64,000 bases of DNA. Origin: Candidatus Poribacteria bacterium (GTDB lineage Bacteria > Poribacteria > WGA-4E > WGA-3G). Positions 9,940 to 49,406 of the stretch are shown here, in pieces. Made by a program: the position numbers and the translations under genes. The notes beneath the pieces were generated by a model that saw only the letters and a list, made by a program, of their open reading frames with translations, did not search any database and was not told the DNA's origin. The DNA lies in NCBI GenBank assembly GCA_028818705.1, contig JAPPNJ010000064.1, positions 1-64,000 on the forward strand, written 5' to 3'. The first letter of the stretch is position 1. Every line of letters begins with the position of its first letter.

Positions 9940-10183
9940 GTAGGTGCGGTTTCCAAATTATGCTCTATAGCATAATTTTGCTTCGCAGTGAGAATGCTTT
10001 ACATTCCGCATGGGTCTCCCTTTAAAATGGTAGGCGAACTTTTAGCAAATGGTAGGCGAGGTTTCTAACCTCGCCAATGAACACCTCTTTTGTAGCGCAA
10101 ACTGTTAGTTTGCGTGCCCACTTTGCACAAACTGACAGGAATCAACGCCAAATGCGCGTGTGGCATTTAGCGTGTGCTACAAG
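9940..10183 (+). repeat. cluster of small palindromic repeats (families A, B and C)
   Basis: GTAGGTGCGGTTTCCAAATTATGC; GTAGGCGAGGTTTCTAACCTCGCC; GTAGCGCAAACTGTTAGTTTGCG; GGAATCAACGCCAAATGCGCGTGTGGCATTT. Confidence 0.75.
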
Positions 10184-10274
10184 TGTCCACATATTTTCGG
10201 GCTTTACTATAAAATCCTGCAAATCCTGATTCAGACAATTAACTGACAACTGATAACTGAGTACCGAAAACTAA

Positions 10275-17484: not shown

Positions 17485-17550
17485 AGGGAATGCCCGGGGA
17501 AGCCCATACGGGCTTCATACCGTTGATTTACGGCATTCATACCGTTGATT
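17485..17550 (+). repeat. palindromic repeat family A
   Basis: GAAGCCCATACGGGCTTCATACCGTTGATT..GGCATTCATACCGTTGATT. Confidence 0.75.
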
Positions 17551-17630: not shown

Positions 17631-20021
17631 ATGGAAACGCTACAGGGTATACTTGAACGTATCGTCTATGAGAACCCTGACACCGGCTATACTGTCGGGC
17701 GTCTTTCCGCGCGAGACCATTCTGAACTTATCACTGTCGTCGGCAATTTAGCATCCGTCAATCCAGGCGAAAGCCTCCTTCTCCGAGGCGAGTGGATGGA
17801 CAACGCCAGATACGGCAGGCAGTTCCAAATTGAGAAATATGAGACCATCTTACCCGCAAATGTAGTCGGCTTACGAAAATACCTCGGATCCGGGTTGATT
17901 AAGGGTATCGGTCCGAAAATGGCGGCACGTATCGTTCAAAAGTTCGGCATGGATACCATGGATATCATTGATCACGAGCCTGAAAAGTTAGCACGTATCT
18001 CCGGCATCGGACGGCATCGCGTAAAGATCATCAAGGAGGCATGGGAAGCACAGCGCGAGATTAAAAACGTTATGCTCTTCCTCCAATCCCACGATGTTAG
18101 CACAACACACGCTGCAAAGATTTATAAGACTTATGAAAACGATGCAATCGCCATCGTCACAGAGAATCCCTACCGTCTCGCCGATGATATTTACGGCATC
18201 GGATTTGTAACAGCCGACACAATCGCACAGAAAATCGGCATAGATAAGGATGCACCCCCCAGAGTCCAAGCGGGTATCAAGTACGTTCTCAGCCAAAAGG
18301 CAGATGAGGGACACGTCTTTCAACACCGTGGCGAACTTATTGAGGCGTGTCAAACTATGCTTGAACAAGAACCCGAAGCGATTGAGGAAGGGGTTCGTGC
18401 ACTCATCGAAACAGAGGAAATTATTAATCCCAGTTTTGTAGACTTCTTGGGCTCCGACAAACAGGGCGGTGTGAGCGAACCACAAGATACGTATGAAATT
18501 AGCAATCAGAAAGAGGTTTTTGAAGCAGATCAGGAACCTCTTTCAACTGACAACCGACAACTGACAACTGATAACCATTCCGCCATCTATCTTGCTCCTT
18601 TTTACTATGCTGAATTGGGAGTCGCAAACCAATTTTTAAGACTTCTATCTTATAGCGATCAAAACTTCAGCCACGGAAAACCAGAAGTGTCATCACCTAT
18701 CAATACCGCAGTCCTGACCCAGTTGGAGCAGGAAATGGGTATTCATTTCGCACAACAGCAGCGCCAGGCAATCCAGACTGCGATGACGGCACGTGCGATG
18801 ATTCTTACCGGCGGACCCGGCACCGGTAAAACGACAACGACTGTCGGTATGATTCGCCTGTTTGAAGCGCAAGGTAAACATATCACCTTAACAGCACCCA
18901 CCGGACGCGCCGCGAAACGCCTCAGTGAAACAACCGGCGGTGAAGCCAAAACCATCCATCGGCTTCTCGAATTTTCTCCACAGATTAACGCCTTTAAACG
19001 CAATCGCCAGAACCCGTTGGACACAGATGTGGTCATCGTTGACGAAACGTCTATGGTAGACCTCGTCCTAATGAACCGCTTGATGCAAGCAATCCCACCC
19101 AGTACGACCCTCATTCTCATCGGTGATATTGATCAGCTTCCGTCTGTCGGTGCGGGCAATGTCCTAAGAGAACTCATTGATTCCCAAAGGATACCCGTCG
19201 TTGAACTGACTGAAATATTCCGACAAGCGCAGGAGAGTATGATTGTAACAAATGCCCATCGTATCAACAAAGGCGATTTTCCAGAACTCACTGGTGACGC
19301 AGATCGGAACTTCTTTTTTATTGAGGAGGAGGACCCAGACGAAATTGTTGAATTAGTATGTTCCCTCATTGCTGATCGATTACCCCAACACTACGATTAC
19401 CATCCCATGGACGATATCCAACTCCTGTGTCCGATGCGGCGTGGAACACTCGGTACTGAAAGTCTTAACAAACGCCTTCAAGAAGTATTGAACCTTGAAT
19501 ATACAGTCCCAGCAGCAGCCCATCCCTTGGAAAAAGCACGCTTCGGAACTCGTCCGTACAAGCAAGGGGCACAGTCCTTTGGTCAATCTCGCACCGCAGG
19601 CGGTTTCCGTATCGGCGATAAGGTGATGCAGATCCGCAACAACTACGACTACGATGTGTTTAACGGTGATATCGGAAGGGTTGTCGCAATTGAACATATT
19701 GACAAGAAAGTCCACATCCAGTTTCCTGATAGACAGGTTGCTTACGATACAGCAGACCTCGGAGAACTCGTCTTAGCGTATGCCACGACTATCCACAAAG
19801 CACAAGGCAGCGAATATCCCGCCGTTGTTATTCCGTTGCACACGCAACACTATCTCATGCTGCAGCGAAATCTCCTCTACACCGGTATTACCCGTGCGAA
19901 GGAGCGCGTCGTAATAGTAGGTACTAAGCAGGCACTCGGTATCTGCATTCGTAACAATCAGGTAATGCAACGCAACAGCTATCTCGCCGAACGCCTTCAA
20001 GAGAACGAAAATAGAAATTAA
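17631..20021 (+). CDS. recD2: RecD2-like ATP-dependent DNA helicase
   Basis: N-terminal OB/HhH region, Walker A ILTGGPGTGKTTTT, VIVDETSMVD, LIGDIDQLPSVGAGNVL, ELTEIFRQA, C-terminal TIHKAQGSEYPAV and LLYTGITRAKE. Confidence 0.93.
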   Translation: METLQGILERIVYENPDTGYTVGRLSARDHSELITVVGNLASVNPGESLLLRGEWMDNARYGRQFQIEKYETILPANVVGLRKYLGSGLIKGIGPKMAARIVQKFGMDTMDIIDHEPEKLARISGIGRHRVKIIKEAWEAQREIKNVMLFLQSHDVSTTHAAKIYKTYENDAIAIVTENPYRLADDIYGIGFVTADTIAQKIGIDKDAPPRVQAGIKYVLSQKADEGHVFQHRGELIEACQTMLEQEPEAIEEGVRALIETEEIINPSFVDFLGSDKQGGVSEPQDTYEISNQKEVFEADQEPLSTDNRQLTTDNHSAIYLAPFYYAELGVANQFLRLLSYSDQNFSHGKPEVSSPINTAVLTQLEQEMGIHFAQQQRQAIQTAMTARAMILTGGPGTGKTTTTVGMIRLFEAQGKHITLTAPTGRAAKRLSETTGGEAKTIHRLLEFSPQINAFKRNRQNPLDTDVVIVDETSMVDLVLMNRLMQAIPPSTTLILIGDIDQLPSVGAGNVLRELIDSQRIPVVELTEIFRQAQESMIVTNAHRINKGDFPELTGDADRNFFFIEEEDPDEIVELVCSLIADRLPQHYDYHPMDDIQLLCPMRRGTLGTESLNKRLQEVLNLEYTVPAAAHPLEKARFGTRPYKQGAQSFGQSRTAGGFRIGDKVMQIRNNYDYDVFNGDIGRVVAIEHIDKKVHIQFPDRQVAYDTADLGELVLAYATTIHKAQGSEYPAVVIPLHTQHYLMLQRNLLYTGITRAKERVVIVGTKQALGICIRNNQVMQRNSYLAERLQENENRN
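18545..18575 (+). repeat. in-frame copy of the intergenic AACTGACAACTGATAAC repeat inside recD2
   Basis: ACTGACAACCGACAACTGACAACTGATAAC, translated as STDNRQLTTDN; near-identical strings at 10239-10262, 12400-12430, 50175-50215. Confidence 0.8.
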
Positions 20022-20141: not shown

Positions 20142-20386
20142 GTAGCATAAACTGTCAGTTTGTGCCACCCGGAAGAAGACTAACGGATTTCTTCTTGCTG
20201 TAGGAGCGAGTGTTTTTGCGAATCAACACGGAATGCGCGTAAATCAGAATCAAAATCAACGGTATGAATGCCTTATAGGCATTCACCGGGTATGAAGCCC
20301 ATATGGGCTTCCGAATCAACGGTATCTATGCCTGTGGGCATAGACCGGGGTATGAATGCCTTAATGGCATTCCCCGGCCTCGCAGT
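20142..20386 (+). repeat. repeat cluster: family C copy then family A array
   Basis: GTAGCATAAACTGTCAGTTTGTGC; AATCAACGGTATGAATGCCTTATAGGCATTCACCGGGTATGAAGCCCATATGGGCTTC..TATGCCTGTGGGCATAGACCGGGGTATGAATGCC.. Confidence 0.85.
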
Positions 20387-25286: not shown

Positions 25287-25326
25287 TGAATCAACGGTAT
25301 GAATGCCGTGTGGCATTCACCGGGTT
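25287..25326 (+). repeat. palindromic repeat family A
   Basis: GAATCAACGGTATGAATGCCGTGTGGCATTCACCGGG. Confidence 0.8.
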
Positions 25327-28268: not shown

Positions 28269-29237
28269 ATGATACGTTACGTCGCCTTTCTGCTTCTGTT
28301 GTGTATCGTAGGCAGTGCAAACGCTCAGACCTTGATTGATTATGTCGTCGCAGTTGTTAATGAAGATGCCATCACTCGCAGCGAACTTGATAGTGAATTG
28401 GGTATCGCTGCTATCATGGGGACGCGTATTACCAAGGCACGAACTACCGCCGAAAGACGCGCTATGCTTGATGCGATTATCAACCGTAAATTGGTTTTAC
28501 AGGAATCTAAGCGACTCGGCATTGTGGTTACCGAGCGCAACACACGGGTAGCGAAAAAGATAGACGGGATTCAGAAAAAATATGCTTCGGATACAGCATT
28601 CCAACGCGCCCTACAACAGCATGACTTGGAAGACGAAGCTCTTAAGGCGTGGGTTTATGAGCAGTTGGTTTATGAGGAATTCTTCCGTCGTATATTTTTT
28701 AATGCCCTCAATAGCGCGGAGATTGCAACGTTAGCCAAATCATACTATGATCTGAACAGTGCCGAATTTATTGTGCCACCTACAGTCACCTTTAATGCGC
28801 TGTTTATCGCTATACCGAAGGATACATCGGAAGCGGAGAAACAAAAAGCCGAGGATCTGACCCAACAACTCTATAGACGTTTACAGCAAGGTGAAACATT
28901 TGAGGCTGTGCGTGAGATGTATGAAACGCAGTTAGCCATGAGGCTTGAAATTTTAACCCTTGCGGTGGATACGCTGTTAGGTACTATTGTTACCGAATTG
29001 CAAAATTCCGAGCGAAGTGGACTCCTCCCTGTTTTAGAAGGATACCAGATTCTGGAACGCGTCCGGAATAACCCGGCGCGCCAAAAAACCTATGCAGAGG
29101 TAAGCGAAGAGATTATTGACCGAATCCAGCAGAAAAAAGCAGAAACCGAATTCGCAACGTGGTTAGCCAAACGGAGAGAAGAGGAAAGTTGGCATATTTT
29201 GGATGATGCCTTAGGCCAGGAAAGTAAGACAAAATAA
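28269..29237 (+). CDS. SurA/PpiC-like periplasmic chaperone (SurA N-terminal type)
   Basis: Signal peptide then LIDYVVAVVNEDAITRSELDSEL, typical SurA N-domain opening. Confidence 0.75.
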   Translation: MIRYVAFLLLLCIVGSANAQTLIDYVVAVVNEDAITRSELDSELGIAAIMGTRITKARTTAERRAMLDAIINRKLVLQESKRLGIVVTERNTRVAKKIDGIQKKYASDTAFQRALQQHDLEDEALKAWVYEQLVYEEFFRRIFFNALNSAEIATLAKSYYDLNSAEFIVPPTVTFNALFIAIPKDTSEAEKQKAEDLTQQLYRRLQQGETFEAVREMYETQLAMRLEILTLAVDTLLGTIVTELQNSERSGLLPVLEGYQILERVRNNPARQKTYAEVSEEIIDRIQQKKAETEFATWLAKRREEESWHILDDALGQESKTK

Positions 29238-29241
29238 ACAA

Positions 29242-30978
29242 ATGTGGAATTATTACAACCTACGCCTCACAAGAGATGAAGAGAGACAGTGTAATGTTCT
29301 GATGAGGAAATGGAGACTGTTTTTCATTGGAATCCTTCTGTTTCTGGGTGTCATATTGGTATTTGGGGATCTTTTACCCAATGATATAGCACATTATCCT
29401 GAAGTGTTCCAGAAACATCTAAAAGAAGCACAGCGTGCGTTCCAATTAGAACAATGGAGTGAGGCACTCCATTTATACCGTGCCCTCGCCAAAGATGCCC
29501 CTGAATTTCCGATCGTCTATATTGGAGAGGGAGATGCCGCTGCAAAACTGAAGGACTATCCCACTGCTGTTGATGCCTTCCAACGTGCTTTGCAACTTCT
29601 CTCAACGCCGCAGAATGCTCGCAGAATGCCACACGCGCATTCTAACATTGATTTACGCGCATTCGGCGTTGATTCCCTACAAGGCGATGTCGCAAGATCG
29701 CGCCTACGGGTTATAGTGCAAGCCAAACTCGCTGCTGCATATCACCGTAATAAGCAGCTTGACGAAGCCGATACATTGTTCCAAGAAGCCATTAAAGGTG
29801 CCGGTGAAGACGCACCAGTGGCGTGGTATGTCGCTCTGGGACAGATTGAGACCGAGCGTGGGAACTTAGAGCAGGCACGCAGATACTATATTGTTGCTGT
29901 CCAATTGGATCCAGATACAACCGCTGCCTACAATAATCTGGGGCATGTGCTTCTCAAACTCAACAGAATTGACGAGGCTGATGCCGCATTTCGGGAGGCA
30001 CTCACCCAAGACGGAACACTTGCCAGTGCTGCGTTCGGACGTGGCGAAGTTGGAGCAAGGCGTGGGCAACTTGCTGTTGCCCAACGTTTCTATGAACATG
30101 CTATCCGTCATGCGCCGAACGAACCAGTATTTCACAAGTCACTCGCCGATGTCCTTCGCAATATGGGAAACATCAAGGAGGCGGAAGTTGTCGAGACACA
30201 TTACCGCCGAAAGTTGGCAGAACGCTACCTTCGTCAGGCACATTGGTTCATCGAAAATAAACAGCCTGGACGTGCCTTAACGCCGCTGCAGAAGGCGCTT
30301 GAAATGGATGACACCTTTACACCCGCGTTGAAAGATTTAGCTTACGTTCAAATACAACTTGGCGAATTGACAGCCGCCAAGGAGTTATATCAACGTGTGC
30401 TTACGATAGAATCTGCTTCGCGTCAAGCACTTTTTCATCTGGGTATGATAGAATCAAAACTCGGAAATCAAACAGCAGCTGCATCCCACTATCTCACGCT
30501 CATCCAACATGAACCAGATTTTATGGGTGCCTATGTGAAACTCGCGAATTTGCATGAACAGGCAGGGAATTTAGCAGATGCCGAGGAGGCACTGACGATG
30601 GGAATACAACACGAGCCTACATGGGCACCCGGATATTTGTGGCGTGGAAAAATATATCGGAAGCAGGGCGCATCCAACATGGCAGAGACTGATTTTCGAC
30701 GTGCAATCCAACTCGCATCGGATGTGCCATATCCAAAAGAGGCGTTGGCGTCCTTGCTTGCATGGGAGGACAGGAAGCTTGCTGAGGCACTCACCCTTGC
30801 TGAAGCTGCTATTAAAAGCGATGGGCAGCCAACACACCGGGCTACGCTTGCCCTTGTCTATTACCGTCTCGATCGGATCCATGATGCGCTACGTGAAATT
30901 GAGGATGCTTTTAACCAGGCGCCTAAACATCCCTATATTCTAAAAGTTCGTTCGGAAATTCTAAAAACTGATCCGTAG
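29242..30978 (+). CDS. TPR-repeat protein with N-terminal membrane anchor
   Basis: TM segment RLFFIGILLFLGVILVFG; repeated TPR units (AYNNLGHVLLKLNRIDEADAAFREALTQDG etc.). Confidence 0.9.
   Translation: MWNYYNLRLTRDEERQCNVLMRKWRLFFIGILLFLGVILVFGDLLPNDIAHYPEVFQKHLKEAQRAFQLEQWSEALHLYRALAKDAPEFPIVYIGEGDAAAKLKDYPTAVDAFQRALQLLSTPQNARRMPHAHSNIDLRAFGVDSLQGDVARSRLRVIVQAKLAAAYHRNKQLDEADTLFQEAIKGAGEDAPVAWYVALGQIETERGNLEQARRYYIVAVQLDPDTTAAYNNLGHVLLKLNRIDEADAAFREALTQDGTLASAAFGRGEVGARRGQLAVAQRFYEHAIRHAPNEPVFHKSLADVLRNMGNIKEAEVVETHYRRKLAERYLRQAHWFIENKQPGRALTPLQKALEMDDTFTPALKDLAYVQIQLGELTAAKELYQRVLTIESASRQALFHLGMIESKLGNQTAAASHYLTLIQHEPDFMGAYVKLANLHEQAGNLADAEEALTMGIQHEPTWAPGYLWRGKIYRKQGASNMAETDFRRAIQLASDVPYPKEALASLLAWEDRKLAEALTLAEAAIKSDGQPTHRATLALVYYRLDRIHDALREIEDAFNQAPKHPYILKVRSEILKTDP
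29610..29676 (-). repeat. in-frame copy of family A repeat inside the TPR gene
   Basis: CGCAGAATGCCACACGCGCATTCT...ACGCGCATTCGGCGTTGATTCC is the reverse complement of GGAATCAACGCCGAATGCGCGT..AGAATGCGCGTGTGGCATTCTGCG, matching intergenic copies near 49280-49400. Confidence 0.8.
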
Positions 30979-31183: not shown

Positions 31184-31546
31184 ATGTTAAAGTTTCAGAT
31201 GATTTTAATCGCTATGCTGGTCTGTTGTTTTGCTTTCGTATCCTGTGAGAGAGCGCAGCAAGTCATGACCCCTGTCACTGATGATATGATGGACGACAGC
31301 ATGTCGCACGACATGATGGGTGACGACATGATGGACGACGGCATGATGGACGACGGCATGATGGATGACGGCATGATGGATGATGGCATGATGGACGACG
31401 GCATGATGGACGACGGCATGATGGACGACGGCATGATGGACGGCGAGATGCATGATGACATGGACGACGGCATGATGGACGGCGACATGATGGATGGCGA
31501 GATGCATGATGACATGGACGACGGCATGAACGGCGATGCCCAGTAA
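31184..31546 (+). CDS. small lipoprotein with Met/Asp tandem repeat (MMDDG)n
   Basis: Lipobox-like AFVSCERAQ; (GMMDD)n; same N-terminus and flanks as the 31795 gene. Confidence 0.8.
   Translation: MLKFQMILIAMLVCCFAFVSCERAQQVMTPVTDDMMDDSMSHDMMGDDMMDDGMMDDGMMDDGMMDDGMMDDGMMDDGMMDDGMMDGEMHDDMDDGMMDGDMMDGEMHDDMDDGMNGDAQ
31319..31533 (+). repeat. 15-bp coding tandem repeat GACGGCATGATGGAC with variant units
   Basis: GACGACGGCATGATG/GATGACGGCATGATG units repeated back to back, interrupted by GGCGAGATGCATGATGACATG blocks. Confidence 0.92.
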
Positions 31547-31567
31547 TTCCATTTCATAACATCTCAA

Positions 31568-31616
31568 AAAAGGGATCAGTAACTGTATTCTGTAGTTGCT
31601 GGTTCCTTTTTTCTTG
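31568..31616 (+). terminator. putative Rho-independent terminator
   Basis: GGGATCAGTAACTGTATTCTGTAGTTGCTGGTTCCTTTTTTC. Confidence 0.75.
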
Positions 31617-31629
31617 CCTAATATTTTTC

Positions 31630-31658
31630 TTGAAAACTAAGTTACAATGTGATACTAT
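31630..31658 (+). promoter_or_regulatory. sigma70-like promoter candidate for 31795 gene
   Basis: TTGAAA (31630) - 17 nt - TACTAT (31653). Confidence 0.5.
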
Positions 31659-31794
31659 TTAGAATGAAGTTGTGTAATATGTGGATTTGAAGAGGGACAC
31701 AATGAAGTGAATGGGCTTTGTCGCTTTAAAGCCCGCAACTCTTCGTTATCCTTTCACTCGAAAAATATAATAGAATTAGGAGCATTGATTAACA

Positions 31795-32559
31795 ATGTTA
31801 AAGTTTCAAATTGCTTTAATTACAATTTTAATTACCTGTGTTGCCTTTATATCCTGTGACAGAGCGCAGAAGGTCTTGGAACCTGCTGCCGATGACATGA
31901 TGGCTGCCGATGATATGATGACTGGCAATGATATGATGACTGGCGATGACATGATGGATATGGTGAAAATGATGGACTCGACAATGTACATGTCCTGGGC
32001 GCATGTTATGCTTCCGGCACCAGGCCCGATGGAGGCAGCTACGAGTCCAGCCGAGACTGGGGCAGCCCACAATCCACCCCCGATAGATGGTGGTGTTCTT
32101 ACCCCACGCACCGTCTATATCAACGATATCGGTGCTATGGCGAATAAGGCAGGAGCAGCAGCATATCCGGCTGGTACCGTGATCGTCAAGGAAATTATGG
32201 ATAAGACCGAAACGTTTGTCGATAAAGTCGCCGTAATGATGAAAAGCGACGACCCGATGTATGCTGGTCACGATGGGTGGGCCTACAAAAAATATCTTCG
32301 TCCCAGTGCAGATGCTGCGTATATGCAGATCAGAGGATCCAACCTTGAAGATGCAGGCAATGGCTGCCACGGTTGTCACGCTAACGCCACTAATGACAGC
32401 GTTTTCGTTTCTCTTTCCATGGACGATATGATGGGAGGCATGGATGACATGAAAGGCATGGAAGATGGCGACATGGAAGGCATGGAAAGTGCTGAAGATG
32501 CTGGCGATGCCGGTATGAATGGTATGGGTGATGATGCCGATGCTGGTACCGCCCAATAG
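31795..32559 (+). CDS. lipoprotein with cytochrome P460-like c-type heme domain flanked by Met/Asp-rich tails
   Basis: Lipobox-like AFISCDRAQ; DDMM repeats; YPAGTVIVKEIMDKTET..DGWAYKKYLRPSA..GCHGCHANATNDSVFV with CHGCH (CxxCH) motif; MDDMKGMEDGDMEGME tail. Confidence 0.8.
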   Translation: MLKFQIALITILITCVAFISCDRAQKVLEPAADDMMAADDMMTGNDMMTGDDMMDMVKMMDSTMYMSWAHVMLPAPGPMEAATSPAETGAAHNPPPIDGGVLTPRTVYINDIGAMANKAGAAAYPAGTVIVKEIMDKTETFVDKVAVMMKSDDPMYAGHDGWAYKKYLRPSADAAYMQIRGSNLEDAGNGCHGCHANATNDSVFVSLSMDDMMGGMDDMKGMEDGDMEGMESAEDAGDAGMNGMGDDADAGTAQ

Positions 32560-47713: not shown

Positions 47714-47727
47714 CAGAGTGTGCGTAA

Positions 47728-47764
47728 AGAATCAACGCCGAAAGCGCGTATGGCTTTCGGCGGG
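47728..47764 (+). repeat. palindromic repeat family A
   Basis: GAATCAACGCCGAAAGCGCGTATGGCTTTCGGCGGG. Confidence 0.75.
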
Positions 47765-49105: not shown

Positions 49106-49406
49106 GTGAATCAGAATCAAAATCAACGGTATGAATGCCTGATGGCATTCAAAATCAGAATCAAAATCAACGGTATGAAGCCCGTATGGGCTTCACCGGG
49201 TATGAATGCCTTAGGGGCATTCACCGGGTATAAAGCCTATAAAGGCTTACCGGGGTATGAAGGACTTCAAATCATTCTCACTGCGAAGCAAGAATGCGCG
49301 TGTGGCATTCTGCGGGGTATGAATGCCTTAATGGCATTCCGAATCAACACGGAGTGCGCGTGTGGCATTCCGAATCAACACGGAATGCGCGTGTGGCATT
49401 CCGTGG
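49106..49406 (+). repeat. largest composite array of family A palindromic repeats
   Basis: Back-to-back GAATGCCTGATGGCATTC / GAAGCCCGTATGGGCTTCACCGGG / AAAGCCTATAAAGGCTT / GAATGCGCGTGTGGCATTC units. Confidence 0.92.

Follow-up and report, generated by a model that had tools for sequence, protein, structure and literature searches.

In-frame insertion of a dispersed AATCAAC-tagged palindromic repeat in a TPR gene of Candidatus Poribacteria

Palindromic repeats lying in frame within unrelated, pre-existing genes are known from Rickettsia (RPEs) and Wolbachia (WPEs), where they are tolerated in exposed regions (PMC10969869, PMC3767692, PMC4224334). A second kind, the GTAG- and CGTC-tagged REPs, comprises tagged hairpins of 20–40 bp that are mostly intergenic; many species also have intragenic copies, with DNA-repair genes (recB and uvrA among them) a frequent location, and no transposase is dedicated to the CGTC class (PMC3733652). 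Poribacteria are not mentioned in the latter paper, palindromic repeats go unmentioned in the Poribacteria single-cell paper (PMC3909097), and the titles and abstracts of the literature searched hold no description of such repeats in this phylum. The repeat considered here, family A, was found in a genome (G000) of Candidatus Poribacteria, an assignment in keeping with its 27 named relatives, all of which are poribacterial MAGs.

Like RPEs and WPEs, family A occurs in frame in pre-existing genes whose orthologs have empty sites, and like the intragenic REPs it has a copy in a repair-type gene (RecD2; compare recB and uvrA). The initial annotation had likened the insert described below to RPEs, and the likeness holds, but unlike RPEs family A shows a strong depletion from genes and uses several reading frames. 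Its unit measures ~35 bp against 100–150 bp for an RPE, and ~2% of its tracts are genic, whereas close to half of RPEs are reported to lie in ORFs. Going by published descriptions, it is further set apart from RPEs and WPEs by its AATCAAC tag, by the lack of a conserved peptide, and by its occurrence, in this sampling, in one Poribacteria genus. With RAYT/REP systems (REPtrons, REPINs) it shares a tag followed by a bulged hairpin, and clustered copies; unlike in those systems, it does not flank the RAYT genes, where a different repeat, family B (GTAGGAG...TCCCGAC), is found instead. Because family A has no GTAG beside the hairpin as its tag, does not flank RAYT genes and encodes no conserved peptide, we classify it as a variant of the RPE/REP-like kind.

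The analyzed stretch of 64,000 nucleotides (the window) contains the host TPR gene, and within it the initial annotation had placed, at 29610–29676, a copy of a repeat also found between genes. The DNA and the peptide that it described are present, and copies in the window and elsewhere in the genome match them. The location was right and the edges slightly too narrow: comparison with the 94%-identical ortholog in the relative G035 puts the boundaries at ~29609–29679, where ~71 bp stand in place of AACCA (ortholog CTCAACGC-AACCA-CAAGG; window CTCAACGC-(71 bp)-CAAGG). No target bases are duplicated, ~5 bp are lost, and the frame is kept. All 29 orthologs aligned, from the same genus and with 72–94% identity over the matched parts, lack the segment and are 22 codons shorter here while their frame runs on continuously, and none of the 29 carries the same residues. 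The DNA match is therefore not the coincidence of a conserved coding sequence, and a chance coding match is ruled out. Among the genomes aligned, the insert is restricted to one species. Across the genome, the segment has 44 matches at E ≤ 1; apart from itself, the strongest extends over 67 bp (E = 3.3e-11). In the window the segment is identical at 24/24 positions to 49291–49314. The part of the host protein concerned reads QNARRMPHAHSNIDLR. Close by, at 31184–32559, two small adjacent genes encode lipoprotein-like products whose Met/Asp-rich tracts are highly repetitive (DDGMM, DDMM).

Table 1. Positions in the window of the TPR gene, its insert and other loci with family A copies or empty sites
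Feature	Position	Strand	Details
Host gene, TPR protein, 578 aa	29242..30978	+	Downstream of a SurA-like gene (28269–29237)
Inserted palindromic repeat	29609..29679	-	71 bp for ~5 bp; net +66 bp = 22 aa, QNARRMPHAHSNIDLRAFGVDS; empty site in orthologs, junction versus G035
Outer unit, tag-distal arm	29609..29619	-	CGCAGAATGCT on + strand; pairs with arm in 29654–29675 in predicted folds
Inner type-2 unit, within loop of outer unit	29620..29653	-	46.7 bits with model R2 (E = 7.9e-8, 841 kb searched)
Outer unit, tag and proximal arm	29654..29675	-	GAATCAACGCCGAATGCGCGTA on - strand; matches 20213–20246, 47724–47750, 10138–10159
Intergenic type-2 unit	10140..10172	+	53 bits
RecD2-like helicase gene, empty here	17631..20018	+	G035 ortholog has a 33-bp in-frame family A copy
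Single intergenic type-1 unit	25289..25323	+	Clean empty site in G035 and G012; +32 bp versus G035, no target duplication
Intergenic type-2 unit	47730..47762	+	Present in G035, absent in G022 and G028
Intergenic tract, several family units	49121..49405	+	Includes 24-nt exact match 49291–49314; largely missing from G035

Aligned units of family A consist of the invariant AATCAAC tag and an imperfect hairpin, and two types can be distinguished: type 1 (GGTATGAATGCC-loop-GGCATTCACCGG) and type 2, built on GAATGC-GCGTGTG-GCATTC. Units were located with covariance models (R2 for type 2); a regex search gave many false matches in ordinary genes. The bases adjoining the stem are CGTC in some type-2 units, CGTT, CGCT, CGCC or CACG in many, and CGGT in type 1, and only a few copies have GTAGGG, at a greater distance. 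No Rfam match for family A was obtained. Of the six reading frames, five are open in a representative type-2 unit and three in a type-1 unit; the verified genic copies are all type 2. In predicted folds, the TPR insert is made of two nested units, the type-2 unit lying inside the loop of the second, and further nested copies exist (e.g., 17488–17549).

In the AlphaFold2 model of the TPR protein (mean pLDDT 86), the insert corresponds to residues ~123–146, between helices 106–121 and 144–169. Confidence falls below 50 only at residues 1–47 and 125–148, the latter stretch being bounded on either side by a confident TPR solenoid with pLDDT ~90. The model agrees with the earlier proposal of an in-frame, non-TPR linker between TPR units: confidence is low exactly at 125–148, in the stretch between helices. 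The insert is thus predicted to be an unstructured loop or linker, where the low pLDDT may stem in part from the lack of aligned sequences across it.

The TPR gene has company. As read from sequence alignments, at least five more genes have in-frame copies with empty orthologous sites; genic copies were sought as open frames spanning a copy, so that frame-breaking insertions would have escaped. A USP/PCP_red protein (+30 bp, ~35 bp in and 5 bp out) and a PqqD-like protein (+30 bp) are each filled in this genome only, among eight genomes. A beta-propeller protein has +30 bp in G016 and G032 and an empty site in six genomes, and the RecD2-like gene is filled in G035 (Table 1). The SPOR-domain protein has +30 bp in five species (G000, G035, G031, G012 and G023) and an empty site in G022, G028 and G026; the frame is kept over all five while tag and palindrome decay (NQHGMRVWHSVG, NPNGMRVWHSLG, NPHGMRVWHTVD). 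In this gene (L242–L249), two clades carry the 30-bp insertion at the identical nucleotide, and the species that separate them have an empty site; the gene tree agrees with the trees of two other genes. The pattern would correspond either to one gain and two precise losses or to two gains at one site. The peptides vary with orientation and frame (RMPHAHS, TRAxxVDS, MRVWHS, STPNARMAF), giving at least four readings in unrelated proteins.

Other repeats also lie in frame. The RecD2-like gene of the window carries at 18546–18578 a third repeat (ACTGACAACTGATAACTGA), found as well at 10242, 12408 and 50182, and in G035 the family A unit of RecD2 sits inside this third repeat. In a further gene (L226:1456-2457 on G000:C104, with orthologs L251–L257), a linker holds a different set of in-frame repeats in each species, comprising family A and GTAG-type repeats; the peptide FVGGICNPDS derives from a GTAG-type repeat, of which G028 has three related copies.

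Genome-wide, R2 detects 67 copies in G000, and matches occur in 28 of 34 relatives of the same genus and in none of 22 genomes of order and class relatives outside the genus. To judge by its sequence, family A is a distinct repeat family, with a tag of its own and no one peptide conserved among its copies; within the relatives sampled up to class, it is genus-specific. It is strongly depleted from genes: across 841 kb of G000, one of 51 tracts (that in the TPR gene) lies clearly inside a gene, compared with 65% of random 35-mers, where copies near an ORF's upstream stop, which probably lie upstream of the real start, were left out of the genic count. Copies inside genes are therefore rare survivors. 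The net lengths of intergenic insertions (+32 bp at 25289, +65 bp at 17494) are not multiples of three; the element is thus not inherently frame-neutral, and its own length does not account for the kept frame of genic copies. From the genic depletion and these two lengths, we infer that selection is the cause of the kept frame.

Based on these observations, we propose that 29609–29679 is very probably a dispersed AATCAAC-tagged palindromic repeat that inserted into the TPR gene in the lineage of this species, with spread at the DNA level, subsequent selection, and a neutral linker as the outcome. Units would spread at the DNA level, taking the place of a few target bases without duplicating the target, either by single-strand (REP-like) transposition or by a template switch at short homology; most insertions in genes would be purged by purifying selection, and those surviving would keep the frame, contain no stop and occupy a loop or linker position. 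The 22-aa peptide of the TPR protein is then most likely a tolerated, neutral extension of a linker. At the filled/empty junctions of the TPR, USP, RecD2 and 25289 sites, target duplication is absent and ~2–5 bp are lost; without target-site duplication, family A does not qualify as a DDE-transposase MITE. No mobiliser of family A was found.

Two routes of spread were weighed. First, a RAYT/TnpA-REP (Y1) transposase might move family A in trans, which would make it a REP family of the usual kind whose tag alone is atypical, a possible but rather doubtful reading. TnpA-REP works on single-stranded hairpins beside a conserved tetranucleotide (PMC8266576); family A has the corresponding REP-like architecture (a short 5' tag and a bulged, imperfect hairpin, clustered), and six Y1 matches are present in G000. 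Against this, family A lies near one of 15 RAYT loci, where it does not flank the gene, and GTAG-tagged family B flanks several; moreover, five genomes (G012, G028, G030, G033, G034) have 8–27 R2 copies without a RAYT match, and three (G007, G014, G025) have a RAYT match without an R2 copy. A RAYT as mobiliser of family A is thus unsupported: its presence does not track the family, and family B flanks its genes. At L084:1382-1973 (G000:C179), and also at L276–L279, RAYT (Y1) genes are flanked by copies, inverted and in tandem, of a second palindrome (GTAGGAGGGAACTCCGATTCCCGAC), as GTAG-tagged REPtrons.

Second, replication template switching between hairpins and short-homology targets could make the copies without any transposase, an explanation that we regard as tentative. 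It is favored by the absence of target duplication and the small loss of bases at the sites read, by hairpins nested in hairpins, and by targets that in some cases resemble the element (TCAACGC at the TPR site, CAGAATGCC at the PqqD site), although this microhomology was judged by eye at few sites. The stem arms of type-1 units differ between copies with changes on both sides that leave them complementary, a pattern to be read with the caveat that units were collected by requiring complementary arms. Opposing it, the tag is nearly constant over 67 copies, which points to a specific enzyme. With still less confidence, we envisage that transposase-less AATCAAC hairpins in Poribacteria replace a few bases with ~35 bp, possibly at preferred sites such as the SPOR nucleotide, and thereby feed loops of 10–22 aa into proteins, some of which outlast the palindrome.

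One alternative to a neutral linker is recruitment: the inserted peptide would serve as a newly gained loop for binding or regulation, or the hairpin would act on the TPR mRNA or on how it is translated, as a regulator. The hairpin of the TPR insert does fold better than shuffles, with z -2.65 as DNA and z -2.59 as RNA, and the conservation of frame in the SPOR insertion despite the decay of tag and palindrome would also fit a recruited function. We nevertheless consider recruitment improbable, given that the TPR insert is found in one species only and has low confidence in the AlphaFold2 model, and that at least four readings in unrelated proteins leave no common peptide to select for. Finally, an assembly chimera in this metagenome-assembled genome (232 contigs; short repeats can in general lead to misassembly) is very improbable, since both flanks are syntenic with G035 for many kb, the TPR frame is unbroken, and separate assemblies share further genic insertions (SPOR in five, beta-propeller in two).

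With the insertion reported here, palindromic insertions in protein genes, familiar chiefly from the obligate intracellular Rickettsiales (Rickettsia, Wolbachia), extend to a new phylum, that of uncultivated sponge-associated bacteria with genomes of 5–6 Mb, for which enough close relatives are available to read empty sites directly. Comparison among them can address how transposase-less palindromic repeats move, and whether such repeats supply raw material for protein evolution.
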